From the IMG/VR virus record IMGVR_UViG_3300042922_000827, positions 23,774 to 87,773 of that record: 64,000 nt of DNA; one strand, given 5' to 3'. The position numbers and the translations under genes were made by a program. The notes under the pieces were generated by a model. It was given only the letters and a program-made list of their open reading frames with translations. It had not been told where the DNA came from and made no database searches. The stretch is from a virus. Positions 271 through 54,210 of the stretch are shown here, in pieces. The first letter of the stretch is position 1. The number at the start of each line of letters is the position of its first letter.

Positions 271-699
271 TTATCTACCAATAGGACGTGTGAATGCATT
301 TGGAGTAAGTTTAAGCAAACTCTTTTGAGCAACAACAGCATCTTTCTTAACGCGAGTGGCATACTTGTTCATAATTTTGCCAATTAGATCGCGTTCTTTA
401 ATACGATTTTTGCGTAGAGCTTCCCAGTTAGCATCACCGTCTTCTTTTGCTTTTTGAAAAGCGGCAATTTTAACACGACGAGTTAAATCATCCATTTTAG
501 ATAAACGAACAATCGTTTTCTTTCCGATAACTCCAGCTTCTTCTAAAGCCTTCACTTCATCAGAACCAAGATATTCAGTTCTTTGATCTTCAGTCATCAT
601 AGCAACTTCTTGTTCAAAGATTTTTTCCATTAGGGCATTCTGATCTGTTACTCCAGATTCTTCATTTAACGCAGATGTTTCTTCAATAAAAAATGGCAT
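271..699 (-). CDS. Small basic protein with prohead-protease-like site
   Basis: 142 aa. I choose the ATG at 699 because AGGGGG stands about 10 bases before it; the frame is open further upstream but has no ribosome site there. The N-terminus is MPFFIEETSALNEESG, carrying an ALNEES motif at residues 10-15 that recurs in two much larger proteins of this window (at about 37.9 and 40.4 kb). The rest is helical and Lys/Arg-rich (NRIKERDLIGKIMNKY...KKDAVVAQKSLLKLTP). By analogy with T4-type processing after hydrophobic-x-Glu, cutting here would release a basic protein that might be packaged in the head. Family not recognised; the packaging idea is inference. Confidence 0.7.
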   Translation of the reverse strand: MPFFIEETSALNEESGVTDQNALMEKIFEQEVAMMTEDQRTEYLGSDEVKALEEAGVIGKKTIVRLSKMDDLTRRVKIAAFQKAKEDGDANWEALRKNRIKERDLIGKIMNKYATRVKKDAVVAQKSLLKLTPNAFTRPIGR

Positions 700-874
700 T
701 TTAAAAAACCCCCTTAATATATTCTTGTTTATATACAGCGCCCACATTAGACACGCTATAGATTATTTAGATGTTTTATAATTATAAACATATTGAATCA
801 TTGAATATAAAACTTTAATACCCATCTTACATTCATATAATGATCTAAATACATTGATAAAGGGGTAATTAGAG

Positions 875-9290: not shown

Positions 9291-10139
9291 TTATAATTTA
9301 AAACAAAAATTCATTACTTCATTTTGAATATGACGTTCTACTGGAACTACGATTCTATCATAATTCTTATCAACTAAAGTAACAGATTTGCCATCTTCTG
9401 ATAATAGAATGCTTTCATAGAAAGTATCAAAATTATTAACGATGGTATTAAGATTAGCAGACTCTGCCATAATATAATCTCTTACAGATGCGTTAGTGAT
9501 AGGAGTTATAATTTGGAATCCTTCTTCAACTAATTGAATATTGCCATGTTCTTCTACCATCTTAGGAATATAGATATATTTATTAGCCTGCGCGGAAGCT
9601 CCCTCGCTAATAATTTTAGTAGTATATGCTTTAGGATGTGATGGGTAATAAACACGGTCATATGTAACTATCTTAAGATTACGCACATATGCTTTACCTG
9701 CATTTTGTATAATAGTACCTAATGCTCTAAGAGAAAATGATGGTTTAGCCCCATCTTTAAGATCATCGTTAAATGATCTTCCTAAATCATTATTAGTTCC
9801 ACGGAAGTTTGCTTTTACAAGATTGCCTTCCATCCACAACTTAGTATACCAAACTTGTTCCATGAATGGGTCGACTTTCTGTTGTCTTGCTAAGTCATTA
9901 GCCGATGGATGACCAGCTTCACCTTTAAAATTTCCACTAGTTACCATTTCTTGCTGCTTAGCACAATGAATTTCTTTATATAGATCATCATGGGCATAGC
10001 ATCGTTTATTGCGATTTTCTTCCTCGGCTTCTTGAATTATACCTTCGGCAATAACGAAATCTCTGTTTTGATTCACTATATTAAATTCTACGTCTTTAGC
10101 AGACGATTCACATATAATATATGCTAACGTAGTATTCAT
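9291..10139 (-). CDS. Prohead maturation protease (T4 gp21/S80-like)
   Basis: 282 aa. Conserved landmarks of the phage prohead serine protease are visible: His77 in GEAGHPS, a Ser in KPSFSLRALG (134 or 136), and the segment VRNLKIVTYDRVYYPSHPK (about 152-170) that usually follows the active-site Ser. The enzyme cuts scaffold, capsid and internal proteins during head maturation, and T4 gp21 cuts after hydrophobic-x-Glu. Matching sites are seen in many proteins here (for example ALNE, AISE, VIRE). AGGAGG precedes the ATG. No early promoter is present, as expected for a late gene. Confidence 0.8.
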   Translation of the reverse strand: MNTTLAYIICESSAKDVEFNIVNQNRDFVIAEGIIQEAEEENRNKRCYAHDDLYKEIHCAKQQEMVTSGNFKGEAGHPSANDLARQQKVDPFMEQVWYTKLWMEGNLVKANFRGTNNDLGRSFNDDLKDGAKPSFSLRALGTIIQNAGKAYVRNLKIVTYDRVYYPSHPKAYTTKIISEGASAQANKYIYIPKMVEEHGNIQLVEEGFQIITPITNASVRDYIMAESANLNTIVNNFDTFYESILLSEDGKSVTLVDKNYDRIVVPVERHIQNEVMNFCFKL

Positions 10140-21528: not shown

Positions 21529-23358
21529 TTATGGTTTGATCGCACCATTAATTGCACTAGCATATGTTACACCGTTTGCAGTATAGTCATTTGCAGCACT
21601 AACACCAATTGGATCTGCATTATTAATATCTTCACGAAGACCAGTTGGGTTCATGATCTGAATACGTCCTTGTACAGGTTGGTATTCCAAGAACATCCAG
21701 CGTTCGAAGCAAGTAATACCAGGCAACTGATAGTTGGTAGTATCACGAATTTCGTTTGAGATGTATAATTGATAATCAACAATTTTGTACATTACCCTTT
21801 GGCTGTTGCGAGGAGTAAGAATAACAATTAAATTGTTGTTATTACGCATCTTTTGGCTAGAAATGAATTGGTATACACGTTTCTCGCCAGTAACAATGGT
21901 CTTTTTGTAATCAAGCTCAATTGGACCAATGTTAGATGGGCTAGAGTAGCTATAATCGCGAGGAGTGATTTTCTTAATCAACTCTGGGCGACCAAATACA
22001 GTTACTGACATGTTTTCATCGTTAAGAACATTTAACATGTAAGTTACTTGAGTATCCAAATAATCCATAAAGGTTTCTTGTCTCCATGATACATGAGAAC
22101 CCATGTAAGAACCTTGAGGAGGAATGAAGTCAAATGCTCCACTAATTTTCTGAGTTGAAGGTAATTTTAAGAAAGATTTATCAAGCTCATCATGAATAGT
22201 GTCATCTTTATAATGCATCAAACCTAAACGCATTTGGCTCATGATTTTAGTAATTTGATTTACGTTATAAAGTGCAGTGACATCTTTTACTTCTTCGGGA
22301 GATACTGTGGTTGTCATGTGCGGTGCTTCTGGAACTTCGAAGATATCCGTACGAGCACTCCATTTTGTTCTGCAAGTTGGGAATGCAGCAGATGATACAT
22401 CGACTACAGCATTAAGACGAACAGCTTTAACATCAGCCGTGTTCATGCAAGTAATCATAAATTTATTTTTCTTTACATAGCCGCTAATGATACCTTTAAC
22501 AATTTTTGTGTTAGTAGCATCAGTTTTTGCAACTACTGTAAAAGAAGCCATGATAGAGCGATCGAATTCACCATAAGATGGAACGAATTTCAAATCCCCT
22601 ACATTAAACAATACTGGTTTTACACCGGCTCCGCCAGCTTCTACAGTATCAATAGTTTTGGTTGTTGTATTGTAATACTTCTCACCGACTGCAACGTAGC
22701 TATCAATAAGAACTGCATTGATACAAGTTTTAATACTTAAATTAGCATTGCTAATTCCGAATTCATCTTTTAAAATATCAAGAGATTCGTTTTCTGGAAG
22801 AGTAATGATAATATCTTTTGTTGGGACACTATTTTTAATAGCATCTTTGATTTTGTACTGTTCCAAGAACATATCGATTTCTTCTCCGTCTGGAGTAACA
22901 AGAGTTCTTGTTTCCATAGTTAAAGTAAACTTAGGAGATTTAGTGATATCTTTTGGCATCGATTGATCAAAAACAGCATTCATCAAAAGATTTTTATGCA
23001 TAGGGAAAGTAATACCAATAACAGGATTGAATGCTCCTAAAGGTGCATTTTCAGATATTGCCTTACGGTCATTAAGATATAATTCCCCAAGATCTGCTTC
23101 AAGTTGAGCAATGTCTTCTGCATCTTGATACCTAGGATCTTTAGGATCGTAAGCCTCTTTAATGAAAAGTTTCCTCATCTCATCGTTTGTGGCATTTTTT
23201 TGAAAGAACATTGAAGGTTGTTCGTATAAACTAACACCCGATTCGCTTATAGCGCTTTTTGCAATGTCTAAGAACTGCTCGGCTAATTTATACATTGAAT
23301 CTTTTCTATAACCTTTTGACGCTGCCAAAGGGTTTTCGCGTTCACCTACAGCTGGCAT
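21529..23358 (-). CDS. Major capsid protein (HK97 fold)
   Basis: 609 aa. Text such as GAFNPVIGITFPMHKNLLMN, the acidic insertion LVTPDGEEIDMF, ETFMDYLDTQVTYMLNVLND and CFERWMFLEYQPVQGRIQIM is characteristic of large-myophage HK97-type capsid proteins. The first about 100 residues are helical and contain hydrophobic-x-Glu sites (AISE-S, FIKE-A, AISE-N), so the N-terminus is probably removed by the prohead protease, leaving a mature shell subunit of about 500 residues. Codon use is richer in GC than that of neighbours, as in highly expressed genes. Flanked by a strong terminator and AGGAGG. Confidence 0.85.
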   Translation of the reverse strand: MPAVGERENPLAASKGYRKDSMYKLAEQFLDIAKSAISESGVSLYEQPSMFFQKNATNDEMRKLFIKEAYDPKDPRYQDAEDIAQLEADLGELYLNDRKAISENAPLGAFNPVIGITFPMHKNLLMNAVFDQSMPKDITKSPKFTLTMETRTLVTPDGEEIDMFLEQYKIKDAIKNSVPTKDIIITLPENESLDILKDEFGISNANLSIKTCINAVLIDSYVAVGEKYYNTTTKTIDTVEAGGAGVKPVLFNVGDLKFVPSYGEFDRSIMASFTVVAKTDATNTKIVKGIISGYVKKNKFMITCMNTADVKAVRLNAVVDVSSAAFPTCRTKWSARTDIFEVPEAPHMTTTVSPEEVKDVTALYNVNQITKIMSQMRLGLMHYKDDTIHDELDKSFLKLPSTQKISGAFDFIPPQGSYMGSHVSWRQETFMDYLDTQVTYMLNVLNDENMSVTVFGRPELIKKITPRDYSYSSPSNIGPIELDYKKTIVTGEKRVYQFISSQKMRNNNNLIVILTPRNSQRVMYKIVDYQLYISNEIRDTTNYQLPGITCFERWMFLEYQPVQGRIQIMNPTGLREDINNADPIGVSAANDYTANGVTYASAINGAIKP

Positions 23359-23477: not shown

Positions 23478-24662
23478 TCATTTCTTATTTTTGCCCAATT
23501 CTTCTAAAATATTGGTAAGAGTTGAGAAGATTGCCATGTGCCGTTGTAGTATTATTTGATTCTCCACGTAGCTTCTGGTGTCATAAGACTGAATTAGAGA
23601 GTCTCTTACGAGGTCTTTTAACTCTAAAAGCTTCCTCGTAACAAATTCGATGGGTCTGATATTGTCTTCGACTCTGTTTACTTTAGAGAGACGATCTATA
23701 CATTTCTCTATATTTGCATAGAGAGAAACAAACTGAGTTTTTAATTCTGTTTGTTTAATTTCTATTTGTTCTGGAGACATATTAGAGAACAATTCTGTCT
23801 CCATTTGTTTTATCTCGTCGTCTCCTTCGCCTCCACCTTGAACATCGTCTCCAGTACCTGTTCCATCATCTCCATCCCGCTCATCTCCGTAGTTAGGGGT
23901 AGAATCATCGTCACCTTCACCGGTTCCGCCATCTACATTTGGGTCGCTGCCTGTACCATCATCACCATCTGTTCCTCCTCCATCTACAGTTCCATCATCT
24001 CCACCTGGGTTGTCGTCGCCATAGTTAGGGGTTAGATCGTCGTCACCTCCACCAGTTCCACCATCTGTATTTGGATCATCGTTATTATCTAACCCAGAAT
24101 CCAAATTCCCACCAGTATTATCATCTCCTGCTCCATTATCTCCAGGAGTTCCTGCATTTGTAGTATTATCGTTTCCATCGTCTAGATTATCATCACCGTA
24201 GTTAGGAGTTAAATCATCATCACCTTCTTCTCCTGTAGTAGTATCATCAGGATTGGAAGGGGCTCCATCTGTTCCGACTACTTCATTTGCATCTGGATTG
24301 TCTGTAGTATAGTTGGGAGTTGTATCATCTTGGCTGTCTTCTCCTCCATCTATATGCTCTGTACCTGTAGGAGCAGGAGTATTTTGGTTATCTATATTAT
24401 CATTTGCGCCATCTTGATCATCATCAGTATAGTTAGCTGTGTCGTTTTTATCATCTTCTGTATCTAACGATTTTCCATTAGCAATGATTTCTTCATTTAC
24501 ACTGCTTCTATATTCTGGATCTATTCGCATTCTTTCTTTAATGGAACGAAGTTTACTTAACCATCTTTTATCATTTTGCTGTTCAGCTATAGCGATATAT
24601 TTATTCAATAGTGTATCTTTACTATAATCTTCATTCAGTACGAATTTATTAAAATCAAACAC
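23478..24662 (-). CDS. Asp/Gly-rich repeat protein with virion-type ends
   Basis: 394 aa, GTG start at 24662 behind GGAGG. N-terminus FVLNEDYSKD has a possible processing site; residues about 18-52 (LLNKYIAIAEQQNDKRWLSK) resemble the C-terminal end of the adjacent 758-aa protein. Residues about 70-280 are very acidic and repetitive, with at least four DDLTPNYGDDN-like units (TPNY). The C-terminal 110 residues are helical. The acidic centre may be a spacer or a nucleoid-mimicking scaffold. It lies next to the capsid gene, so a head protein is the best guess. Confidence 0.6.
   Translation of the reverse strand: MFDFNKFVLNEDYSKDTLLNKYIAIAEQQNDKRWLSKLRSIKERMRIDPEYRSSVNEEIIANGKSLDTEDDKNDTANYTDDDQDGANDNIDNQNTPAPTGTEHIDGGEDSQDDTTPNYTTDNPDANEVVGTDGAPSNPDDTTTGEEGDDDLTPNYGDDNLDDGNDNTTNAGTPGDNGAGDDNTGGNLDSGLDNNDDPNTDGGTGGGDDDLTPNYGDDNPGGDDGTVDGGGTDGDDGTGSDPNVDGGTGEGDDDSTPNYGDERDGDDGTGTGDDVQGGGEGDDEIKQMETELFSNMSPEQIEIKQTELKTQFVSLYANIEKCIDRLSKVNRVEDNIRPIEFVTRKLLELKDLVRDSLIQSYDTRSYVENQIILQRHMAIFSTLTNILEELGKNKK
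23820..24460. repeat. Degenerate in-gene repeats encoding TPNYGDD units
   Basis: Recurrent segments around 23885, 24020, 24195, 24300 and a degenerate one near 24427 encode TPNY/ANY followed by acidic residues. The repeats are imperfect in DNA, suggesting old expansions. Confidence 0.7.
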
Positions 24663-24676
24663 ATTTATACCTCCTT

Positions 24677-26953
24677 CTAATCATTTTCTTTTCCTAATGG
24701 CTTAACGTTATTATCATCCCACTCAAGTTTAATTTTATATCTTAGTCTTGCATCTTGAGCTTGTAATTTTTTCTTAAGAAGAAGAAGTTCTCTAAGACGT
24801 TTCATATCTTTATTATCTTCTGCTATAGCGATATATTTATCTACCATAGTAAGTTCAACGTCTAGTTCATCCAATACCAATTGACGCTCTTTGGTTCTTA
24901 TTCTAGAATTCATTGCAAACCTGCCAAGAAGTAAAATAAGAGCAGCCGCAGGATGAATGAGCCAAGCAGCTCCAGCTGTAACGATAGCCATTTTAATAAC
25001 TTTAGAAGCTTGAGGCAAAATGTCTCCACGGATAACAGCCTCTCTATTTTCCATAGTCATAGCCTTTTCCACACTTCTAGAAACCATAGCACATGCAGAG
25101 TCTACGCTTCTAGACATTATTTTTTCTTTATCGGAAAGATTGCTTACAACTTTAGATAACTTTTGGACTGCTAATTTTAAATTACTTGTCAAACTTAATT
25201 CATTTATAGACTGAACGTATGAATTTATAGAATTTGTATATTCATACAACTCATTTAGTTGAGAAAATAAATTTTCTTCGACTTCTGTATCTATGGAAAA
25301 TATATTATCGAACGAATCAAAACTATTCATATTACTAATATCTTCCACATCGCTAGACATAAGTTTAGAAATATTTTCAGCATAACAATTAATCTTATTA
25401 TAATTGATAATGCCATTTATTGAAGCTTGTTTATCTGCAAATTGCAATGCTTCTATAAACTTATCTTTACTTAACATATGTGGATATTTAACACAAAACT
25501 CTGTAAGAAAATCTACATCCTCTAACTGCATTTCTACAATATTATTACTAGAGAATAAAACTTTCTCATTTGCCTTTTGATCCCATTTGATAGAGCTTAC
25601 AGCAGATTCGATAACCACTATATTGGTAGCTACAATTTTAGCATCTTCATCAAAGTTAATATTAAAGTTAAAATCTCCACCTTTATCAGGCTTTGTTTCC
25701 CAACTTTTCTTTTCATCATCTCCTCTAAGAGAATCAGAATATCCTTCCAATGAGTCGATGCTTTTATCCAACTGTTTTAGATATTCTTCCAATCTAGCTT
25801 TTTTCTTATTATCTTTACATTTATCTATCTTCCTGGCTACTGAATCTCTATTCCTATACCATACTTTGAGTATATCTGTCATATACTTTCTTTCAGTTAT
25901 AAAGTTTATTGTCTTTGCCACAATAGCAGCAAAGATTCCAGCATATACACTAATAGATATAGCGCCGACAACACATAAAAAATAAAAAGCTATAGATAAA
26001 AGATTCTTTGTACCATTTACTATATTATTATCTTTATTAACTACTAAAATATTTATAAGCATTAATTTTAATGCTTCTGGTGTTTTGGATGGAAGTGTTT
26101 TGAATTTATCTATAATATCTTTTGTTTTATCTTTTAAAGAAGATTCTAATAGAGAATCTATTGTATTCTCTTCGACTGTTTCTACTATAGAACTTTGCAA
26201 TCTTTCAATATAGCAAGCATCTTCATGTGTAAAGAATCTATTTTGTGCAGCAGTTTCTCCAAGAATATGTAATAGTTCTCTAGAAGAATCCTCTTCATTC
26301 ATATGAGTGCTTAAAAAATAATCAGTTACTGCTTCTAATATTGATGCCGAATTTGCCTTTACATTATTCTTATAAAAAGTAAATAATACTTCTTCTAATG
26401 CGATGCTATATTTAGAATTCACGCCCATATTATATGTATCGATAAAAGAACAAAGTTCATGAATCGTATCATTAATATTATCACCATATGCATTCTCTCT
26501 CACATAAGAATCAATATTAAATCTTTTGGAAATCATTAAATGATTTTTTATAAGTCTATCGCAATGAATACTTTCATTTATTCTACCTAAAATAGACGCT
26601 AAACAAGATTTTCGTACATCATTAGATTCTTTAATTTTTGTAGATATGACCGGTCTAAGCAGCGATGGATCATCTAATGAAAAAATAATATTCTCATTAA
26701 TTCTGTCTGTAATAGTATCGAGCTGTTTGCTTGTTCCCTTAGATGAAACAATATCAAATAGCTCCAATACTTTATCTAGAGATTCCCCCATATTTTCAGA
26801 ATACGATGCCCATCTTTCTACAGAATTTTTAATATTATCAAAATTATAATTTTCTTTATAAGATTGATATAAAGGATATGGTATAGACCCTCTAAATGGC
26901 TTTGTCCGATAGTATCGCTTGTTCAAAACTAATGTAGAAATACTTTCCTTCAT
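24677..26953 (-). CDS. Large membrane-spanning virion-type protein, 758 aa
   Basis: Helical protein with two hydrophobic regions: about residues 318-345 (IAFYFLCVVGAISISVYAGIF) and about 665-695 (AIVTAGAAWLIHPAAALILL). Coiled-coil-like charged stretches lie between. The end (VDKYIAIAEDNKDMKRLREL) matches the N-terminal module of the next gene. AGGATG-type site at the start; the two genes are 14 bases apart and cotranscribed. Internal head or ejection protein that inserts in the host membrane is a reasonable inference; the family is not recognised. Confidence 0.55.
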   Translation of the reverse strand: MKESISTLVLNKRYYRTKPFRGSIPYPLYQSYKENYNFDNIKNSVERWASYSENMGESLDKVLELFDIVSSKGTSKQLDTITDRINENIIFSLDDPSLLRPVISTKIKESNDVRKSCLASILGRINESIHCDRLIKNHLMISKRFNIDSYVRENAYGDNINDTIHELCSFIDTYNMGVNSKYSIALEEVLFTFYKNNVKANSASILEAVTDYFLSTHMNEEDSSRELLHILGETAAQNRFFTHEDACYIERLQSSIVETVEENTIDSLLESSLKDKTKDIIDKFKTLPSKTPEALKLMLINILVVNKDNNIVNGTKNLLSIAFYFLCVVGAISISVYAGIFAAIVAKTINFITERKYMTDILKVWYRNRDSVARKIDKCKDNKKKARLEEYLKQLDKSIDSLEGYSDSLRGDDEKKSWETKPDKGGDFNFNINFDEDAKIVATNIVVIESAVSSIKWDQKANEKVLFSSNNIVEMQLEDVDFLTEFCVKYPHMLSKDKFIEALQFADKQASINGIINYNKINCYAENISKLMSSDVEDISNMNSFDSFDNIFSIDTEVEENLFSQLNELYEYTNSINSYVQSINELSLTSNLKLAVQKLSKVVSNLSDKEKIMSRSVDSACAMVSRSVEKAMTMENREAVIRGDILPQASKVIKMAIVTAGAAWLIHPAAALILLLGRFAMNSRIRTKERQLVLDELDVELTMVDKYIAIAEDNKDMKRLRELLLLKKKLQAQDARLRYKIKLEWDDNNVKPLGKEND

Positions 26954-34807: not shown

Positions 34808-36591
34808 TTAAGATATGGCATCTATTATGGTATTGTTTTGTTGCTCGGCTTTACCAGCATCAGTTTTGGCTTCTTGCACCGCCGAATAGTATAAATAATG
34901 CAAGAAGCCCATCGGTTGTCTCAAGGCTTCTACAAAACTAAGTCTATTTCTATAGTACTTAGTTAGCATATTTACTCTATCGAGTAGTTGCTTGTAGCTA
35001 CCAATTGATGCCGTAAAAAAAGCAAGTTTAATGGAAGTATTGGCTCTGGTGCGAAATGATGTGTACACTTTACATTTGCTTTTGTTGTACCGGTACAATC
35101 AGCTTCTGGGATCTGATATATAATATCATCTTCGAGCAGTTTATTAATTGCACTAACTTCAGAACCGATTAATCCGTATTGATCAGAGGTTAGTTTTTTG
35201 ATTATATTATAATATGCTACAACTTTATTCTTAACAGTTTTTGTAACGTTATCTGGATCTGGTTTGGTGTCAATTGGAATGAGATTTTTTGTTTGCGCAT
35301 CAATAAGATATACACCCTCGATATAGGAAAGAATGCTAAGAATATCTGCATATTTTGTAGTGAATTCTTCATTTAATGCACTAGTTTCAAAAATTAATCC
35401 ATATACATGCGGAGCACGCATAGCAAATACATAATGTTCAGAAACTTGCACAAGTTTAGGCTCTAATGCAGAAGGGGTAGTATCTTCTCCATTAGCCAAA
35501 AGATGTTGAAATTTTGTTTTTACTTCTTCATTTGGATAGTGGACCATATCATCAATATTGGAAGTTTTTAATTCTAAATTAGAACAAGCAGGGCAATTGT
35601 ACGTTAAATGATTATTATACATAAACGTTGCTCTATACAGTGCAAAATATAAATGGTTAATATCAAATCCGCAAATAGTCTTTAACCATACATCCATATT
35701 TTGTGGTTTATTTGGATCTACAAGATGATTAAACATGATAGAATATGCTGTTCTAAATGCATGCATTCTATTTTTAAAGTTTTCTTGATTTAGATTAGTA
35801 ATTTCTTCGCCGCTTAATTCAGAAAATGTAATAAGGCGGTTTGAATTTGGCAGACCCCATTGTGCAGTATTTATTTGTTTTGTGGCATTACCAAGAGCCT
35901 TTGTAATAGAAATTGGTTTGCTAGAGATTCTAAATTCTTTTAGATCTATAGCATTAGGAATAACCTTTACAGTGGATTTAATTTGAGATTGATATTCTTT
36001 AAAGATTTGCTTTTGACGTTCGTGCTCTTCAGCATCTTCTTTTTCTTTCTTTTTTTCTTCTTCATCGTCTTCTTTAGCTTGTTTTTCTAAATCAGCTTCA
36101 TCTTCACCATCGAGTAGATCTTTAAGATCTTCATCATCAATGGAGAATCTGCTCATATCGCTTAATGCGCTAAGATCTTGAGCATCCATAATCTTACTTT
36201 CCGCAGACTGCACTGTCTGTCTTGTAGAATCAATGCTAATTTTATCAGGTTCTGATGTTTCGTTAGCTTCTGCTTCGAGTCTTGCCGCAACCATATTATC
36301 TTTCATTGGTCCGATGACGTTCTCTTGCAAATCTTTTTTAACTCTTTCTATATTTTCATCAATTAGTTTTAAAGCATTTTCTTCAAATACTTTTCCTGGT
36401 TCTACTCTTGGCGCAAACGCAGCTATTTCTCCAATATTTACGTTTTCCCCGTCTCCAACACCACCAACAGCATTAGGAGTGATAACTCCATTTGTAGCTC
36501 CTTCGTTCTTTTGAGATTTGGAATCAGGTATATTGACTCCTAGTTCTGCCAATGTAATTGTTTTTACATTTCCTTCGTTTTCTGTACTCAT
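34808..36591 (-). CDS. Baseplate/tail assembly protein with probable -1 frameshift
   Basis: The zero frame runs 36591-34972 (539 aa). At 35020-35014 the minus strand reads T TTT TTA in that frame, a classic -1 slippery heptamer. Slipping there bypasses the stop and adds 68 residues (TASIGSYKQLLDRVNMLTKY...), ending at 34808 for 594 aa. A Glu/Lys-rich disordered N-terminal 190 residues precede a folded part with CPAC (about 331) and C-x10-C (about 497) that may bind zinc, as in T4 gp26/gp51-type baseplate hub assembly factors. It is next to gp25. The alternative is a homopolymer sequencing error or a true mutation; the open second frame argues for real coding. Confidence 0.65.
35014..35020 (-). 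promoter_or_regulatory. Slippery heptamer T TTT TTA
   Basis: In-frame X-XXY-YYZ slippery site within a run of seven T on the minus strand; the second frame is open across it and continues to 34808. Confidence 0.65.
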
Positions 36592-36605: not shown

Positions 36606-36977
36606 TTATAATGATTCTAACGTTGTCGTTTCTTTATTAAAGGTTAATCTATATACTACATCGTCTATTACAATAGATATTCTAATCGTTTTATCCGATT
36701 CTGATACATTAACCTCAGCCGCTATTAATTCTGGTAGATATGTGGCTATTTGATCTTCATAGTCACTTTTAAGTTGTTCCAGATCATCACTAGATGAATA
36801 GCGGTATCTAGATATAATTCCAAGACCCATATCTGGTCTTGTTGGCATTGTCCCCTTTTCCAGCAATGCTAGCTCTATAAGCTTAATACATGTAGCATCT
36901 TGATCTTCGAAGACTTTAGGTCTATTGAATTCGTTTAGTGACATACTGTGCTCTCTTAAAGTGACATTATCACTCAT
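36606..36977 (-). CDS. Baseplate wedge protein, gp25/GPW family
   Basis: 123 aa. KGTMPTRPDMGLGIISRYRY (about 37-56) matches the family signature KGerpmrPdfGcgl of T4 gp25 and P2 W. The family closes the baseplate wedge and primes the tail sheath, so this phage has a contractile tail. It lies 14 bases ahead of the frameshifted baseplate protein. Confidence 0.85.
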   Translation of the reverse strand: MSDNVTLREHSMSLNEFNRPKVFEDQDATCIKLIELALLEKGTMPTRPDMGLGIISRYRYSSSDDLEQLKSDYEDQIATYLPELIAAEVNVSESDKTIRISIVIDDVVYRLTFNKETTTLESL

Positions 36978-37084: not shown

Positions 37085-39286
37085 ATGAAAAAATATAATT
37101 GCCCATATTGTGGATATAGAGGTTCTAGGGAAGATTTGATATCTCATATAGAAGAAGAGCATGATGAAATGATACCAGAAAATTTTACTGCGGCTAGAGT
37201 AGTATTTAATTTAGTTAATAAAAAAGATCATGGAGTGTGTGTTGTTTGTAAAAGAGAAACTGAATGGAATGAAAATGCTAGTAAATATGATAGAATGTGC
37301 GGACGCAAAGCTTGTTCAGATGCTTTGAGAAAAATAGCAGTAACTAATCATATCAAAGTATATAATAAACCTACTCTTCTTGGAGATGATGAACATCAAG
37401 AAAAAATGCTAGCCAATAGAGGTATATCCGGAAAGTATAGATTTACAGACGGAGGATATGTAGTTTATACTGGATCTTATGAAAAGAAGGCACTGGAGTT
37501 TATAGATAAAGTGCTAGGATTTAAATCATGGGATATACTTTGCCCAGGTCCAGTATTTGAATATGAATATGAAGGTAAAACTCATAAGTGGATTACTGAT
37601 ATGCTTCTTATTCCGTTTAATCTAATTATAGAAGTTAAGGATGGTGGAAGCAATCCTAATAATCGTACTATGACTTCATATAGAGAAAAGCAAGTGGCTA
37701 AAGAACAAATGATTACATCTCTTGGTAAATTTAATTATCTTAGATTGACAGATAACAACTTTGCTCAACTATTAGGAACAATTGCTGAACTCAAAGCTCA
37801 AATGATTGACGATAGTGAAGATAATAAGAAAGTAGTTATCAATATAAATGAAGAAGTAGAAGCTTTAAATGAAGAATCTTCAAAAGATATAACAAAGTTT
37901 AAAGCTATGATTCTAAAAAAAGTAAACGCCAATTCTAAATTTAAAAATTTTATAAAAGGCAAATCAAAAGATGATATAAAAAAAATAAATGATAAGATAT
38001 ACAACTCATCAGCTAAAATATTACGCGAAGTCGCTAGATTGACATTCAATACAAAGCATCTTTCGGAAAAATTATTTTGGGCTGTTGCTATAGGATATGT
38101 ATTATCAATGTTTGGCATAATCGCATCGTCGGCTATAATGTTTGGAACTGCCATTGGAGTAGACTATGCTGTAGACGCAAGGTATAATAAAAAGAACGAA
38201 TCTACTGAATTAGAATCGGAGATTATAGATGAAATGTCTATAAGTGTGCCATTGAATAAAGATCATATACAAAAAGGGAATAAGTCTTTATTCTCCTTTA
38301 AAAAAGTTTCTATAACTGATAATGATATTAATAAATATAAACAAGATATGAAATCATTATCACATATAAGAACAGAAGATGGGTACAAAGGAACCATATT
38401 CTTAGATAAAAACAATCCAGTTTGCTATGTAAATGTAAACTCTAATAATGGAATGATACAGGCACTGGAGATATCTAAAGACTATCAGGGATATGGATTA
38501 TCATCGCAATTATTGAAATATGCTGTATCTACACTAAAAGCAACATCATTAACGGTAAATAAAAAAAATGAAGTTGCAATAAACGTGTATAAAAAGCAAG
38601 GCTTTAAACAAGTTAAAGCTACCGATAATATGATAACTATGTCTATAGATGAGAGTATGGGTCTTGCAGGAATTGGCGGAATGCCAGCACCTTCTAATCA
38701 ATTCATTACTCAATTTGGTCCTAGATCTACTTTCTCAGATGATACAGTAGAAGGGTATGCCATTCACAACGATATCATTACAGATAAGATACTATTAGTA
38801 GATAAGAATGGTAATCTTGCGGTTAAAGAATCTTCTTTCTTAGAAGGAAGAAAGATAAGAATATTTAAATACATTGGCGAGAATGTGGATGAATATTACA
38901 AGATATTAAAATCTGCAAAGAAAAATAAAAAAGCATATAGAGAATATCTATATGAAGCGCTAACTGGGAAAAGGCTATTATCAGACGATCAGATAATCTG
39001 TGATGAATGCTTCGAAGAAATATCCCCAGTTAAAATCTTTGCAGAATACAACTCAGCCGCTCAAACAATTGTAGATCAGTATAAAGAAATAATTGGAGAA
39101 GAAATAGTTAGATTTCCACTAATGAATGAAAAATCTATATCTGAAGCTTCTAAGATTACAACTGGCAATATTCATATTAATATATTTGAAAATATGAACG
39201 GATACTTTGCAGAAAATGCTATAACTCGCCAAAGGACTGCATATTATAAGGATATAAAAGATATTCAAATTGAGGTGATATTGTAA
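37085..39286 (+). CDS. Composite protein: zinc finger, nuclease-like, membrane, GNAT domains
   Basis: 733 aa behind AGGAGG. Residues 4-27 form a C2H2-like finger (CPYCGY...HIEEEH), then another Cys cluster (CVVCKRE...MCGRKAC). Residues about 165-200 (ITDMLLIPFNLIIEVKDGG) carry the D-x(n)-E-x-K pattern of PD-(D/E)xK nucleases. At 260-265 stands ALNEES, the recurring processing-like motif. About 328-352 is a membrane span. About 460-515 is a GNAT acetyltransferase core (DYQGYGLSSQLL and INVYKKQGF). The last 200 residues are not recognised; SIDES at about 515-520 is another possible cut site. It overlaps the next gene by one base. The protein seems built to be cut into several enzymes. Confidence 0.7.
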   Translation: MKKYNCPYCGYRGSREDLISHIEEEHDEMIPENFTAARVVFNLVNKKDHGVCVVCKRETEWNENASKYDRMCGRKACSDALRKIAVTNHIKVYNKPTLLGDDEHQEKMLANRGISGKYRFTDGGYVVYTGSYEKKALEFIDKVLGFKSWDILCPGPVFEYEYEGKTHKWITDMLLIPFNLIIEVKDGGSNPNNRTMTSYREKQVAKEQMITSLGKFNYLRLTDNNFAQLLGTIAELKAQMIDDSEDNKKVVININEEVEALNEESSKDITKFKAMILKKVNANSKFKNFIKGKSKDDIKKINDKIYNSSAKILREVARLTFNTKHLSEKLFWAVAIGYVLSMFGIIASSAIMFGTAIGVDYAVDARYNKKNESTELESEIIDEMSISVPLNKDHIQKGNKSLFSFKKVSITDNDINKYKQDMKSLSHIRTEDGYKGTIFLDKNNPVCYVNVNSNNGMIQALEISKDYQGYGLSSQLLKYAVSTLKATSLTVNKKNEVAINVYKKQGFKQVKATDNMITMSIDESMGLAGIGGMPAPSNQFITQFGPRSTFSDDTVEGYAIHNDIITDKILLVDKNGNLAVKESSFLEGRKIRIFKYIGENVDEYYKILKSAKKNKKAYREYLYEALTGKRLLSDDQIICDECFEEISPVKIFAEYNSAAQTIVDQYKEIIGEEIVRFPLMNEKSISEASKITTGNIHINIFENMNGYFAENAITRQRTAYYKDIKDIQIEVIL

Positions 39287-41529
39287 TGATAGGTATCGAT
39301 GATGAGGTTATAACTACTGGGTTAGACGATAGAGAAATAAAAGATTGGAGATTGTCTCATAATATGATTCTTCTCCATAGTAGCTATCAGACAGAGAAAA
39401 AATTAAGAGATGATTGGGAAAAATTTAATAATATGACAATTCAAGATAGGATTGAAAGCGATTGGAAATCTATAGATTTATTTGGATTCAGTAATATTGA
39501 TAGATATGAAACAATGCTATCTGAATTTCTTAAAAACGATATTCCAGATGAATTATATGATAATTTATATGTTCCTATGAAGGAATCGTATGATCAAGCA
39601 GATGAATGGAATAAGAATAATATAAATAAAGTTATATCCAAAGCAAGCTCTTTAAAAGATCTTGAGAAGCAATGGGGTGTATATAATAGCATCCCAGTTT
39701 CTGATAGGTACGAAGTTGATGATGCTTCTATCGAATTATTTGATATGGACAACACGCAACATTATTTGGCTCAAAGAAAAGAATTCCTTAAAAAAGATAT
39801 AAACCATTCTGCTCCAACTATACAATATGTTCCATCTAGAGAAGAAGCTCTACGTCTATATGCATCTAAAATAGATATTGTGGGGGCAGCAAAAACTTGT
39901 GCTAGGATTCAAGAATCTACTTCAAATAATATTTCTGATATTATATTCGAAAGTGCTGAAAGGAATATTAGCGATAAAATAAATATTGATAACATGATAG
40001 CTCTATCTATTACCCCATTCTATTCTCCATATGAAATGGAAAAACTCGGCATATCTACTATAGATACTGGAATATATAGTGACGAACCAGATAATGTTCT
40101 AATTGGAGATATTACGACAAAGCAATGGTTTCAAGAATATAAAAATAGATTTAATGGATTTGACGACGATGCATTAATTCAATCTACTATAGGAGACATT
40201 GGAGGGTGGGCAGAAACTATAAAGAAACTATATTCTGATTATGATGAAATAAAAGAATCTGGAGATGTAGCTGCTATAAATAGTAGGAAGCAATCCATAT
40301 TAGATCTTGGGTGGAATCCAGAAATAGAGTTTAATGAGGCAACTAGAACACATGCCAATAATCGTATAAATTCTATACTTGAAGATATGTATTCTAGGTA
40401 TAGAATTATAGATGTAGAAGAAAGTGTTGCTCTTAATGAAGAAAGTGTTAATAGTGATTATGTTGGAGCTTTAAGACAGGTAGCAGTTCGTCCACTTTAT
40501 ATAATATTTTTTAATTCAAAAACTGTATTTAATAAAGTTATAAGAACTGTTACTAATAGCGTATATAGTCATGTCTCTATATCTTTTGATCCGTCTCTAA
40601 AAACAATGTATAGTTTTGATGCAAAGAATGGTGGCTTCTCTCAAGAATATATGACAGATTATATTAGTAGCGGAGAAGTAAAAGCTATTCAAGTATTTTG
40701 CACCTTTATAGATACGGCAAAATATGATGTATTACAATCTAAGATAAAAGAATATAGTAAAAATCAAAAGAATTTAGGATATTCTTTTATCAACCTAGTA
40801 ACAATACCATTCAAAATAAACTATATAAATAAAACCAAAATGGTTTGCTCCCAATTTGTAGATAGTATGCTTAAATTGGCTGATTTGGATATTACTAATA
40901 TTGGATCTAATATGATATCACCTGGAAAGCTCAATAATAGTATTAAGAAATATAAGGGAGATATTTATAAAATATATACTGGATCTCCAGATAAATATAG
41001 TGCCGATAAGGTATCTAATTTTATAAATAAACTTGCCAGCTCTACAGCCCAAGTAGAGTCAAATATACTAAGACCATTTTTATCTATTTCTAGTATAAAA
41101 GAAGCTAAGGAGTTTCCGGTTCAATTTACTGATGATGGAGATCTTCTTATATCTAAAGGTAAAGATATAGATTTTGAAGGAGAATATTCTAGGTGCCATA
41201 TAGCATTAGAACAATACGACAAAGTGAATAATATAGAAGCTATGAAATATTGTATTTATAAACTATGGTATATGAATATTGTCTTAGAAGAAAGAATCCA
41301 CGAAGATAAATCTGACAAGGATAAAATAAAGGAATACCATAAAGCTAGAGCTAAAATAATTAATGATATTAAAACTTATATGCATAAGATACAAAAAGTA
41401 GATAAGAAATTTGATATTATTAAAGAATATAATGAAAGCCCATTTAGTAGCGATTCTATTAAAATAAGAAGATCAACTCTCCTTTATACTATAGATCTAT
41501 TTAAAAGAATTATTGGTATTAAGAAATAG
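39286..41529 (+). CDS. Composite protein: tandem repeats plus papain-like (YiiX/NlpC-type) domain
   Basis: 747 aa, start overlapping the previous stop (TAATG). The N-terminal part holds two copies of a helical unit (EKKLRDDWEKFNNM...EFLKNDI and LEKQWGVYNSI...EFLKKDI). At 382-387 is ALNEES. After it, residues about 400-570 look like a permuted papain-type amidase/peptidase: YSHVSISFD (His about 429) before MVCSQFVDSM (Cys about 522), the order seen in YiiX and related proteins. The end is helical and Lys-rich. Possible lipid-, peptide- or murein-hydrolysing activity released by processing at the ALNEES site. Substrate not inferable. Confidence 0.65.
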   Translation: MIGIDDEVITTGLDDREIKDWRLSHNMILLHSSYQTEKKLRDDWEKFNNMTIQDRIESDWKSIDLFGFSNIDRYETMLSEFLKNDIPDELYDNLYVPMKESYDQADEWNKNNINKVISKASSLKDLEKQWGVYNSIPVSDRYEVDDASIELFDMDNTQHYLAQRKEFLKKDINHSAPTIQYVPSREEALRLYASKIDIVGAAKTCARIQESTSNNISDIIFESAERNISDKINIDNMIALSITPFYSPYEMEKLGISTIDTGIYSDEPDNVLIGDITTKQWFQEYKNRFNGFDDDALIQSTIGDIGGWAETIKKLYSDYDEIKESGDVAAINSRKQSILDLGWNPEIEFNEATRTHANNRINSILEDMYSRYRIIDVEESVALNEESVNSDYVGALRQVAVRPLYIIFFNSKTVFNKVIRTVTNSVYSHVSISFDPSLKTMYSFDAKNGGFSQEYMTDYISSGEVKAIQVFCTFIDTAKYDVLQSKIKEYSKNQKNLGYSFINLVTIPFKINYINKTKMVCSQFVDSMLKLADLDITNIGSNMISPGKLNNSIKKYKGDIYKIYTGSPDKYSADKVSNFINKLASSTAQVESNILRPFLSISSIKEAKEFPVQFTDDGDLLISKGKDIDFEGEYSRCHIALEQYDKVNNIEAMKYCIYKLWYMNIVLEERIHEDKSDKDKIKEYHKARAKIINDIKTYMHKIQKVDKKFDIIKEYNESPFSSDSIKIRRSTLLYTIDLFKRIIGIKK

Positions 41530-49318: not shown

Positions 49319-50719
49319 TTATTTTTTAGCAGTTTGTGCTGTAGCTGCGGCTTTAATAGCGTCAACTCCACCTTTAAAATTTGGATTTTGAGCAATAACT
49401 CTTTGATTGAGATCGGCAGTAAGTTTACTCTTTTCATTAGCATCATTAGAGTTTTCAATTTGAGAAATTGTATTTAAAACTTCTTGAGGATTATCTATTT
49501 TAAGAGCTCCTTTATAATTAGATCCAGAATTTGCTACTTGGCTATCGCCTTCTTGACCTACATAAGATCCTACATGCAATCTAACAAGCTTCATATAATC
49601 TTTATAAATTACATGAGCAGAAGTCATTTTAGAAGTAACAACTGCACTAGCTGCTGTATTATACGCACCAATCTTTTTAGTAAGAGTATCAAGATCTGCA
49701 TTAGAATCTGGTTTTACTGGTTGGGTTGACGTTTGAACAGACTGCATATTACTTGACGCTTTTGTGTCTCCGCCAGTAGCACCGGTATTTCCAGCCGCAT
49801 TTGGATCTGGTTTCTTCCCAATAGTCATACCACTATTATGAGAATCATCTTCAGTAAAGTATGAATTCATATAATTTCCTAAAGAATACGACTCTCCAGT
49901 GTACTCCCACTTTTTACTATTAGCATTCATTTTGGCAACTTTGTTGGGTCCAGGAGTTCCAATTGGATTGTCCTGAGATGAGCCCTTTTCTCCAGCCCCA
50001 GCTGTTGGAGTGGTAGTGCCGCCTCCTGCTGTAGGTGTTTGTTGTTGCGGAGGTTGCTGTGCATCTGTTTTTGCTTTTTGAATAGCAGATTGAGCAGCAT
50101 TGAATGTTGTACCAAGAACATTCTTATCTTTTTCAATTGAAGATTTGATCTTCTCAAAATCATGACAAAAGTTATATAGATCAGTCATGTTAAGACTAGT
50201 CATATTAGTAGACTTTTTATCTTCTCCACCTTGAAAATACGCAACAGCAAATCCTGCAAAATCCTTACTAGCATCTTTATATTCTGGGATAAGGACGCCT
50301 TTAAATGAAATATCAGCATCATCAACAGGAACTTTATCCTGCACAGATGTGAATGCTGGGATAGAAGTAGATGTCATTCTATGAATACCTGTAGAGTAGT
50401 CGCGCATTTCAAGATCTACATCTTGTGGTTTCTGATTTAAAATAATATCTTTATATTTTTCAAGATATGCTTTATCAGATGCGATCATTTTGTTAGTAAA
50501 CTCGACAAACTTAGCCCACACACGATTTAAGAATGCAATAAATTTATCCCACAAACTTCTAATCTTATCGCCAACGTCTTCATGTACAGCCCATAATTTT
50601 TGAGAGGCTGTGGATTCGGATAGTCCTACAATGGATTTTACAAATCCATTTATTTTTTCAGTTTCAATAGCAGATTCTACTACAAACTGAAAATATCTAG
50701 CATCTTCAGTGTAATTCAT
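49319..50719 (-). CDS. Tandem internal virion protein paralog 1
   Basis: 466 aa from the ATG at 50719 behind GGAGG, starting two bases past the stop of the next gene upstream. Shares with three neighbours the amphipathic module SLWDKFIAFLNRVWAKFVEF...YLEKYKD (about residues 55-100), preceded by a Glu-containing candidate cut site (VHED). Residues about 200-330 are a Gln/Pro/Gly/Thr-rich linker (QQPPQQQTPTAGGG). Likely packaged inside the head; function unknown. Confidence 0.6.
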   Translation of the reverse strand: MNYTEDARYFQFVVESAIETEKINGFVKSIVGLSESTASQKLWAVHEDVGDKIRSLWDKFIAFLNRVWAKFVEFTNKMIASDKAYLEKYKDIILNQKPQDVDLEMRDYSTGIHRMTSTSIPAFTSVQDKVPVDDADISFKGVLIPEYKDASKDFAGFAVAYFQGGEDKKSTNMTSLNMTDLYNFCHDFEKIKSSIEKDKNVLGTTFNAAQSAIQKAKTDAQQPPQQQTPTAGGGTTTPTAGAGEKGSSQDNPIGTPGPNKVAKMNANSKKWEYTGESYSLGNYMNSYFTEDDSHNSGMTIGKKPDPNAAGNTGATGGDTKASSNMQSVQTSTQPVKPDSNADLDTLTKKIGAYNTAASAVVTSKMTSAHVIYKDYMKLVRLHVGSYVGQEGDSQVANSGSNYKGALKIDNPQEVLNTISQIENSNDANEKSKLTADLNQRVIAQNPNFKGGVDAIKAAATAQTAKK

Positions 50720-50720
50720 A

Positions 50721-51812
50721 TTACTCAACCTCCAATGCATAATCTGGAATATTGAAAAGATCTACAGACTCTTGTTTTGCAAGAATCTTTTTAAATGCTC
50801 CGTATATAACTTTCTTATCTTGGTCGAAACATCCTTTGATAGCATCCAATTTAGCAGAGAACGCCATTAAATGCATATTAGAAATTTCCTGAATCTCTTG
50901 AGATTTTGCTTTCATAAATAAATCATATAAAGCAATTTTGTCTGAAGAGCTGTCGCCGTCAATAAAGTCTCCAATTGACACTTGTGAATTTCCATCAACT
51001 GTTTCCTTTGTTACCTTATCAAGGCGTTTTTGAATACCATTATAAAGCTTTTCCACATTATCAGCATGGCGCTGTGTGGAAGTCTTCATCTTATCATATC
51101 CTGTAAAGAATGCTAAAGCTTCATTCACAATAGCGCTGGTAACTGTTATTTTAGTCTGAGCATGTTCACCGTTGCGGAATACTTTGAATAATTCATTTTT
51201 ATAATCGGTTTGATCGATATTTGATTTGGCATTGATACTTTTCTTTCTAAGTTCATCCAAATAAGAATTTGAACTCCTCTTGTCTAAAAATGCATCATAT
51301 GATTTCTTTAAATCTGCTTGACTCTTAGCATCTCTTCCATCTGTTTTGAAATCAGCGATAGATTTATCGAAATCTTGCAATATATCCAGAGAAGGAATAC
51401 CTTCATCAAATTTAAAATCAAATCCAGAAATATCAAATTCATGCTGAGATGTAAACTTGCCTAATTCTGTTTTATGCTGTTCTATGTACTTATCTCTCAT
51501 AAATAGAGAATTGACTCTCACCCAGAATTTAGCAATAAGCTTTTTGAAAAATGCTACAATCTTTTTAAGAAAAACTTTAATGCCATCGAAGAATTCTGAG
51601 AAAGATTCTCTTATAACAATACTATCATTGCTCGATTCATTAATATTTTTATACAGATTGGCATTTAATAGACCAAGTGACTTGCTTTGTTCTGTTAAAA
51701 AATTCAAAGTCTCAATAAAAAAAGAATCATCATTGTATGAATCAGTACTTTCGACTGTAACAATAGAAGTATGCTCATCCAATAAAGATAATGGACTAAA
51801 TAATTTACTCAT
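50721..51812 (-). CDS. Tandem internal virion protein paralog 2
   Basis: 363 aa. N-terminal about 70 residues, then VIRES (candidate cut) and the shared module FFDGIKVFLKKIVAFFKKLI...YIEQHK. The C-terminal two-thirds are helical and charged (for example DKMKTSTQRHADNVEKLYNG in outline). The most basic and aromatic of the four in its module. Late gene, AGGAGGG start. Confidence 0.6.
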   Translation of the reverse strand: MSKLFSPLSLLDEHTSIVTVESTDSYNDDSFFIETLNFLTEQSKSLGLLNANLYKNINESSNDSIVIRESFSEFFDGIKVFLKKIVAFFKKLIAKFWVRVNSLFMRDKYIEQHKTELGKFTSQHEFDISGFDFKFDEGIPSLDILQDFDKSIADFKTDGRDAKSQADLKKSYDAFLDKRSSNSYLDELRKKSINAKSNIDQTDYKNELFKVFRNGEHAQTKITVTSAIVNEALAFFTGYDKMKTSTQRHADNVEKLYNGIQKRLDKVTKETVDGNSQVSIGDFIDGDSSSDKIALYDLFMKAKSQEIQEISNMHLMAFSAKLDAIKGCFDQDKKVIYGAFKKILAKQESVDLFNIPDYALEVE

Positions 51813-51838
51813 TTAATTCCCTCCTTATATATAATAAA

Positions 51839-51866
51839 TCAGGGAATACCAATTGGTATTCCCTGA
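51839..51866 (-). terminator. Hairpin terminator
   Basis: Perfect 28-base palindrome after paralog 3. Confidence 0.85.
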
Positions 51867-51877
51867 TAATATTTTGA

Positions 51878-52969
51878 TTACCGGAATGTAACGGAGCCTA
51901 AGAAATCATCGCCTTTAGCTCCTTCTCCATAATGTTGCCACCCTTCGGATTCTTTTACAGAAACGCGAACAACTTGAGCAGCAAATTGTTTAGCCTGACT
52001 AACGCGGTTAGCAATAGCAGTCATTTGAGCACCAAGGAATGTTTGCTTTGCAGCCAATACTCCTTTAAATGCAGTAACCATAACTGGGTAAGCAGAAGTC
52101 TTCTTGCCAGCATCAGCTTTTTCGCCATCAGAAGCGCTATTTCCAGCTTGAGTGTCAATAGTGCCCTTTTGTGCTTTATCGCATAATTTAACAAGCTCAC
52201 TAACATCTTTTTCAAGCTGTTTGTAAGAATCGCTAACAGCTTTGCTTGCTTTATCAGATCCAAGAATGCCGCTGATATAAGCAAAGTCAACGCCGCTTTG
52301 TTCTGATTTAGCACTTTCTTTATCGCGGAAATATTGGAATAATTCTTTATTGAACTCGCTTGCAGTTAAAGAACTAGCTCCAACTAAACTACCGCGATAA
52401 CCTTCAATTCCTTCTTCAAGTTTTTCACGAGCTCCGACAATCTTCTCAGCATCGGATGCAGAAAGACTTGCTGGATTTCCAACACTTGCGCCACCAAGCA
52501 TTTTACCGGCAGCTGCAACAACGTCAGCGCCAACTGTGGAATTCTTTTCATCGCAATGAGTAAAGTGATATCCGACAAATTTTGTCTTTTCTTTATCAAC
52601 TTTACCAAATTTTTCGGCAAGATCTCTTTTGTATTTATCTAAGAAGCTTTTGCCGCTTTTGAATTGAGCATCGAATCTGCTCATAAAGCTATTGAAGATG
52701 CCTTTAAGTTTTGCAACAAGAGACATAAACATTTTCTTTACTTTTTCCCAGAAGCTGCCAATAGCACCTTCAGTATAAACACACTCTCCGGATTCCCTAA
52801 GGGCAGAACTTTCGTGAATGCCGATAGCTTTCATAAGAGAGTTATAATTACTTTCACCTTCCGCAACAGCGGCAAGTACTGCTTCATGATAATTTTCTAT
52901 ATATGTTGGAGTCGCTTCGACTTGAAGATCTACATTACTAGTCGATGCCCCTTCTTCAAAAAATGCCAT
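51878..52969 (-). CDS. Tandem internal virion protein paralog 3
   Basis: 363 aa. Candidate cut sites ALRES and YTEG (about 54-68) stand directly before the module GAIGSFWEKVKKMFMSLVAK...FLDKYKRDL. This copy and paralog 4 are the closest pair (EGA-(I/L)-(G/S)-SFWEK-(V/I)-K). GC-richer codon use suggests abundant product. Followed by a strong terminator. Confidence 0.65.
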   Translation of the reverse strand: MAFFEEGASTSNVDLQVEATPTYIENYHEAVLAAVAEGESNYNSLMKAIGIHESSALRESGECVYTEGAIGSFWEKVKKMFMSLVAKLKGIFNSFMSRFDAQFKSGKSFLDKYKRDLAEKFGKVDKEKTKFVGYHFTHCDEKNSTVGADVVAAAGKMLGGASVGNPASLSASDAEKIVGAREKLEEGIEGYRGSLVGASSLTASEFNKELFQYFRDKESAKSEQSGVDFAYISGILGSDKASKAVSDSYKQLEKDVSELVKLCDKAQKGTIDTQAGNSASDGEKADAGKKTSAYPVMVTAFKGVLAAKQTFLGAQMTAIANRVSQAKQFAAQVVRVSVKESEGWQHYGEGAKGDDFLGSVTFR

Positions 52970-52991
52970 TTTAAATTTCCTCCTTTTTATT

Positions 52992-54098: not shown

Positions 54099-54210
54099 TA
54101 TATATTCCTCCTTAAAAATATTCATTTACTATAATTTATGGACATTAATCTCCATAGATTTATTAATATGTTTATATCTTCAATTATGGCATTTATTCTT
54201 ATACAATAAA

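Follow-up and report, generated by a model that had tools for sequence, protein, structure and literature searches.

In giant phages of the Bacillus phage AR9 kinship, several enzymes appear to be joined in one protein, with a cut sequence for the maturation protease between them; a single gene could thus stock the virus head with multiple enzymes to be injected into the next host cell. The window analysed here is a stretch of 64,000 nucleotides (64 of the 87.8 kilobases of virus record IMGVR_UViG_3300042922_000827) from an AR9/PBS1-like phage; PHROG and Pfam searches of its proteins identified an S77 prohead protease, the major head protein, a GroEL-like chaperonin and a primase. Two of its genes, encoding proteins of 733 and 747 amino acids (aa; hereafter polyproteins 1 and 2), are in our judgement likely to specify modular polyproteins that enter the prohead, are split by the phage's own S77 protease at Glu-ending linker sites, and yield pieces that leave with the DNA and act early. 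With a little less confidence, we favour a broader conclusion, that in one giant-phage lineage the protease of capsid maturation also serves for polyprotein processing, and that exchangeable enzyme cassettes, bounded by sites suited to the phage's own protease, are mounted on at least three head-targeted carriers (nuclease, papain-like and prohead scaffold) and freed as injected enzymes in the maturing head. Sites at module borders, the presence of the protease and the occurrence of the same cassettes on several carriers are established by computation, as is, more weakly, the agreement in spelling between these sites and that of the major capsid protein (MCP); cleavage, packaging, injection and the enzymatic roles are what we infer.

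Polyprotein 1 (37085..39286, + strand) consists of a zinc-finger endonuclease (residues 1 to ~240), a site-bearing linker, a helical, membrane-like segment, a GNAT domain (~401-520) and a C-terminal module (~524-733). An earlier sequence-only reading of the window had described this chain as a nuclease-like part, the motif ALNEES and a GNAT core, an architecture confirmed by a match to the phrog_15137 endonuclease at residues 1-233 and a Pfam GNAT match at 423-512. Where it also placed a membrane span, the predicted model has a helix (residues 328-350), lying in a low-confidence region. ALNEES (residues 260-265; 37862..37879, +) is located between nuclease and GNAT; residues 256-269 form a linker of low predicted local distance difference test score (pLDDT) in the model, and the same linker holds a second candidate, ININE↓E (residues 252-256; the arrow marks the candidate bond). 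A further candidate site, IDE↓S (residues 521-524; 38645..38656, +), separates the GNAT domain from the C-terminal module and falls at the end of the GNAT domain in the model. In two relatives (L023 and L025; L and G numbers are our handles for loci and genomes), NMNE↓DMSG and EVTE↓DMSG precede a C-terminal module that is similar by eye.

Polyprotein 2 (39286..41529, +; phrog_1128) has a helical N-terminal part, a site, a permuted papain-like domain (residues 403 to ~568) and a C-terminal module (~608-747). The order previously read from the letters, helical part, ALNEES and papain-like domain, is correct, with the domain starting at residue 403 and ALNEES (residues 382-387; 40429..40446, +) 15 residues ahead of it. 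Another candidate site, IKE↓A (residues 604-607; 41095..41106, +), lies ahead of the conserved C-terminal module. A predicted model of the whole protein was poor (mean pLDDT 41.9) and was set aside.

The third copy of ALNEES occupies residues 10-15 of a 142-aa protein (271-699, minus strand), so that all three copies claimed earlier were located, each reading EE..ALNEES. Among the 88 open reading frames (ORFs) of the record, ALNEES is the sole 6-mer present in at least three, a situation reached by any 6-mer in 11 of 300 shuffled sets. Because codons differ between the copies (Ser is TCT or AGT, Leu is TTA or CTT), a copied DNA repeat is ruled out, and the likeness is at the protein level. A fourth ALNEE, overlooked by the earlier reading, lies in ETSALNEEF at residue 405 of the protein encoded at 34972-36591 (-); here it is followed by Phe, and the match is probably due to chance. 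The pattern A[ILVM][NS]E, chosen after the sites had been seen, occurs 10 times in the record versus 3.45 times in shuffles, a count reached in 1 of 300.

Alternatively, the genes could encode conventional multidomain fusions that stay uncut, the motif having arisen by accident in flexible linkers rich in Glu and Asn. The fourth ALNEE, in an unrelated protein, speaks for this explanation, as does the lack of genome-wide enrichment of the NE-type motif (18 versus 13.6 expected in G007; 22 versus 16.1 in G001); the argument for cut sites consequently rests on position and not on frequency. Positional conservation among relatives and a test on unseen sequences, both described below, lead us to regard such an accident as unlikely.

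The proposed cutter is an S77-family prohead maturation protease of the T4 gp21 type (9291..10139, -; PF03420, 1.9e-11; phrog_207, 1.7e-24), as had been recognised at position 9291. An S77 protease is encoded in all 23 contigs tested, one of the matches being read through a stop codon. The MCP (21529..23358, -) carries AISE↓S (36) and AISE↓N (100). For phage phiR1-37 the annotated mature N-terminus of the MCP is Ser87 (MLQE↓S), and in the MCP alignment this cut falls opposite AISE↓N of the window and LYAE↓G of phage JD-Fnp4. Two bonds within ALNEES would be compatible with these sequences: ALNE↓ES matches AISE↓N, the aligned capsid site, and LNEE↓S would place the customary Ser at P1'. Under the proposed scheme, the chains would enter the prohead core and the S77 protease would cut after Glu during maturation, at window sites of the form A-[I/L]-[N/S]-E, the same kind as in the capsid protein. 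Polyprotein 1 would thereby be divided into the ancestral nuclease of AR9 type, a segment associated with the membrane, a GNAT acetyltransferase and the C-terminal module. Polyprotein 2 would release its helical part, the permuted papain-like enzyme and its own C-terminal module. Once matured, these pieces would exit the head together with the DNA and act at an early stage of infection.

The genomic setting of the nuclease gene resembles that in AR9. A small gene at 36606-36977 (-), whose product has no PHROG match, followed by the nuclease gene (+) reproduces the AR9 order g232 ("base plate wedge") and g233 ("endonuclease fused to N-terminal Zn finger"). The g233 nuclease stands alone, at 238 aa, and the window protein runs ~490 residues past that length. 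Scans with single proteins, and with a first two-row peptidase alignment, reached only one near-identical contig; the families were recovered with alignments A1 and A6. Of 87 nuclease loci in the alignment scan, the best 80 were kept and represent 58 distinct ORFs, of which 37 are 219-263 aa long, 19 are 301-1238 aa long with extra sequence, and two are broken by a contig end. Directly after the nuclease, the long relatives show, for example, RVNE↓D, HINE↓N, RVNE↓S, RVNE↓A, RVNE↓T, RINE↓G, RINE↓F, RINE↓M, KVTE↓A, ILTE↓S and IATE↓S, and the linker alignment retains [IV]NE amid otherwise variable sequence, which argues against an accident of linker composition. An N-terminal extension ending in ILNE↓A, LIE↓A or LLE↓A is present in five of 16 loci checked (L016, L018, L021, L023 and L025). 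In JD-Fnp4, LLYGE↓G follows the nuclease domain, TLYGE↓A precedes the peptidase and TLYGE↓S lies inside the phage's own protease. The pattern [LM]Y[AGSTR]E[ASG], picked after seeing the data, occurs 22 times in JD-Fnp4 versus 0.99 expected (maximum 4 in 200 shuffles), with copies in the MCP, protease, nuclease, peptidase and other proteins. The search of relatives that had been suggested for sites at the same domain borders did find Glu-ending sites, spelled in several phages like the phage's own capsid site. We also noted that, in alignment A1, neither the first zinc finger nor the Glu of E-x-K is present in the nuclease domain of JD-Fnp4 gene 17 (L004:12820-13989), which may be inactive.

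Across 13 loci checked, an orthologue of polyprotein 2 is encoded soon after the nuclease gene in six (L016, L018, L020, L021, L023 and L025), the papain-like domain is within the nuclease chain itself in two (L014 and L027), and in five the first two ORFs downstream of the nuclease gene contain no papain-like domain. Sites ahead of the domain include ITE↓A, ALSE↓S, IVNE↓S and LTE↓S, with LYGE↓A in JD-Fnp4. Over the 26 chains used for development, whose borders had in part been picked by eye, [ILV]xE[ASG] occurs at 26 of 1045 border residues versus 63 of 14285 others (p = 1e-10). For a held-out test we fixed the rule, [ILVM]xE[ASG] upstream of the papain-like domain, before scanning 45 loci; removal of 13 on contigs already seen left 32, corresponding to 25 distinct ORFs. 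A site was found upstream of the domain in 19 of the 25, versus 95 of 474 control windows from the same ORFs (p = 9.6e-9, for relatives that are not independent of each other; in L183, L185 and L198 the match starts inside the domain, which shifts the test window). When the held-out windows were shuffled internally, the mean was 2.8 and the maximum 9 in 5000 shuffles, which speaks against an accident of composition.

In several phages, linker and capsid sites are spelled alike. G010 has IATE↓S in both MCP and linker, and G009 has LTE↓S in both. Pairing each MCP site with the linker of the same phage scored above permuted pairings (p = 0.003, 10 phages), using a scoring of our own devising on a sample in which G006 and G007 are closely related and with the result carried mainly by G009, G010 and JD-Fnp4. 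The MCPs of the held-out contigs are largely of one common pattern, and in L166 and L188 the longest ORF is not the MCP. HAEG/HSEG, which topped the first motif count in G009 and G010, was rejected, as 21 of 22 copies (G009) and 28 of 28 (G010) form repeats within a single long protein that is probably a tail fibre.

The polyproteins might also be cut by their own papain-like domain. Polyprotein 2 has such a domain with invariant His and Cys, and processing in cis has been proposed in print for the metallopeptidase domains of polyvalent proteins (PMC5512222, accessible part). Yet, in several cases, sites look like the one in the phage's own MCP, and the chains of L036, L047 and L025 carry sites with no papain-like domain (the neighbouring gene of L025 encodes one; the contigs of L036 and L047 were not searched). 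Moreover, the domain resembles, weakly, the YaeF/YiiX amidase family (C92), to which the Peptidase_C92 match in relative L168 is under cut-off. We therefore consider self-cleavage the least probable of the alternatives, and cutting by the prohead protease the better account.

Further evidence for cutting by that protease comes from the distribution of the modules. BLAST relatives of the window's GNAT domain are on nuclease carriers (L047, L025, L023 and L073), a papain carrier (L157) and the G001 scaffold; a P-loop (kinase-like) module is on nuclease (L023 and L025) and papain (L016, L157 and L169) carriers, and transglutaminase-like modules are on all three. The P-loop module has a matching site context in L025 (LNE↓SILFNEKD) and L016 (INE↓SWIFNEKD). 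GNAT, HAD (L032), Transglut_core (L025) and DUF362 pass the Pfam cut-offs; most P-loop and several transglutaminase matches are under them, and other names that lack a search result, such as the metallophosphoesterase in L036 and the portal-like label used below, were read by eye. The third carrier corresponds in the window to an acidic scaffold-like (prohead-core) protein adjoining the MCP gene (23478..24662, -), which has no family match, is named from position and composition, and carries VLNE↓D near its N-terminus. In G001 the corresponding protein beside the MCP is a fusion of 1246 aa (L138:9369-13106, equivalent to G001:161366-165118, -) with the order FNE↓A, transglutaminase-like, IYE↓S, GNAT, INE↓E, DUF6582-like, IKE↓S, DUF362 (1.3e-44), VNE↓S and acidic scaffold; every module border holds a site.

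A scaffold-like protein among the carriers is compatible with a different outcome, in which the prohead protease does cut but the pieces are scaffold-like or structural parts for head assembly and not injected effectors; prohead proteases are described as mainly taking off propeptides that exit the head (PMC10052503, accessible part). However, the families matched by the modules are those of enzymes (GNAT, HAD, transglutaminase-like, DUF362 and P-loop NTPase), and the modules vary among relatives, as structural parts do not. We accordingly give a purely structural role little credence.

Cutting by a gp21-type protease, packaging in the head and injection had been proposed together. Comparison lends the first good support (relatives with sites at these borders, the held-out test, capsid-like spelling in several phages, and cassettes common to the carriers), and we conclude that the two proteins are modular polyproteins, probably cut by the prohead protease. 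For packaging and injection the evidence is indirect; g237 of phiR1-37, an orthologue of the nuclease, is annotated as a structural protein, and in G001 the modules are joined to the prohead scaffold. Besides the absence of genome-wide enrichment, the non-independence of the relatives and the narrow basis of the permutation result, several observations weigh against the proposal. The window's own nuclease linker has no site under the strict pattern [ILV]xE[ASG], and the papain border of L014 is weak, with DISE↓K only. Six of the 25 held-out ORFs miss the rule: L157 (ITE↓Q), L168 (ITE↓Y), L175, L188, L178 and L186, the domain starting at residue 13 and 18 in the last two. The best linker match differs from the proposed site in five of the 10 phages permuted (G001, G002, G006, G007 and G008). 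ALNEES of the 142-aa protein, present as claimed, is not kept in the two relatives found, and the protein was rejected as a conserved member. The DUF362 module of G001 itself contains two additional pattern matches, and the scaffold fusion is confined to that one lineage among those checked: a scaffold match (E < 1e-3) was obtained in 17 of 20 fetched contigs, all 17 being plain proteins of 224-422 aa, as are the scaffolds of the window and G007. Finally, the unfused nuclease orthologue of phage BpSp, gp288, is missing from the list of 22 phage proteins of its virion, the unfused endonuclease of DC4 is unnamed in the accessible part of the text on 15 virion proteins, and we found no virion proteome of any phage with fused genes.

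Other proteins may be processed in the same way. The 142-aa product corresponds to a 158-aa ORF (271..747, -) read from its second Met, has EETSALNEES near its N-terminus, and is possibly a small head protein. A head structural protein encoded at L010:102-2342 (+; phrog_3004, portal-like by eye) has ALSE↓SG at residue 279, which would fit a long portal propeptide as in SPN3US gp81. Adjoining the scaffold gene, 24677-26953 (-) encodes a 758-aa protein with hydrophobic segments, the sites INE↓S, ILE↓A and VIE↓S, and no PHROG match; it may be another processed head protein. Four adjacent genes at 49319-54125 (-) encode proteins whose N-terminal 80 residues each hold two to three xxE[ASG] sites, and one of them matches phrog_26049 (virion structural); inner-head or ejection proteins are possible products. 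JD-Fnp4 gene 93 (L008:16046-16555) encodes a stand-alone GNAT (Pfam, 4.9e-19) that starts MIMYGE↓A, suggesting that a GNAT-class enzyme may be packaged singly there. Outside the window, the record encodes a complete-looking sensor histidine kinase (L011:3690-5498, +), in which dCache, HAMP, HisKA and HATPase_c all pass Pfam cut-offs, an unusual content for a phage record.

We found no description of effector polyproteins cut by a prohead protease in titles and abstracts of the open PMC literature. If our proposal is true, the enzymes that giant phages inject can be located by sequence through their cut sites, and anything flanked by two of these is a candidate enzyme for takeover or counter-defence, delivered at time zero. 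The polyprotein strategy, familiar in RNA viruses, would be extended to the loading of a tailed-phage head, suggesting a natural design for capsid-based protein delivery. JD-Fnp phages are isolated, so the claim is directly testable.

Each element of the proposed system has a known counterpart. AR9 g233 and its relatives (phrog_15137) are homologous nucleases in the same position, beside the baseplate-wedge gene place, and differ in being stand-alone, about 240 aa long, and without cargo. T4 internal proteins and Alt are packaged in the head and cut by gp21 after Glu (PMC9026906, accessible part); the S77-type protease and the predicted cut after Glu are shared, but T4 internal proteins shed a targeting propeptide, whereas the predicted sites here lie between enzyme modules of one chain. 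Head proteins of phiKZ and SPN3US are cut by gp175 and gp245 after x-x-E, Ser being favoured at P1', with several sites per protein and with ejected proteins among them (PMC10052503, PMC5694885). Mass spectrometry of SPN3US found 14 cuts in nine proteins, with the motif A-x-E and a preferred P1' Ser; 13 of the 14 remove N-terminal propeptides and the remaining one the protease's own C-terminal propeptide (PMC10052503). These are likewise giant phages with Glu-ending sites, multiple per protein (here read from sequence), but unlike what we propose for the window polyproteins, the accessible parts of both accounts describe no division into enzymes. Polyvalent proteins are phage-encoded and combine many enzymatic domains per chain; entry into the host along with the DNA and processing into units by their own metallopeptidase domain have been proposed for them (Iyer et al. 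2017, PMC5512222, accessible part). Chains described here similarly combine at least two effector-type domains (Pfam), but their sites are of the prohead-protease type. No Pfam family of zincin metallopeptidases was detected in the two window proteins (E <= 0.1) or in 21 chains of relatives (E <= 0.01). Since no metallopeptidase was found in the 23 chains scanned, unlike in polyvalent proteins, we suggest that they combine polyvalent-like cargo with gp21-like processing.

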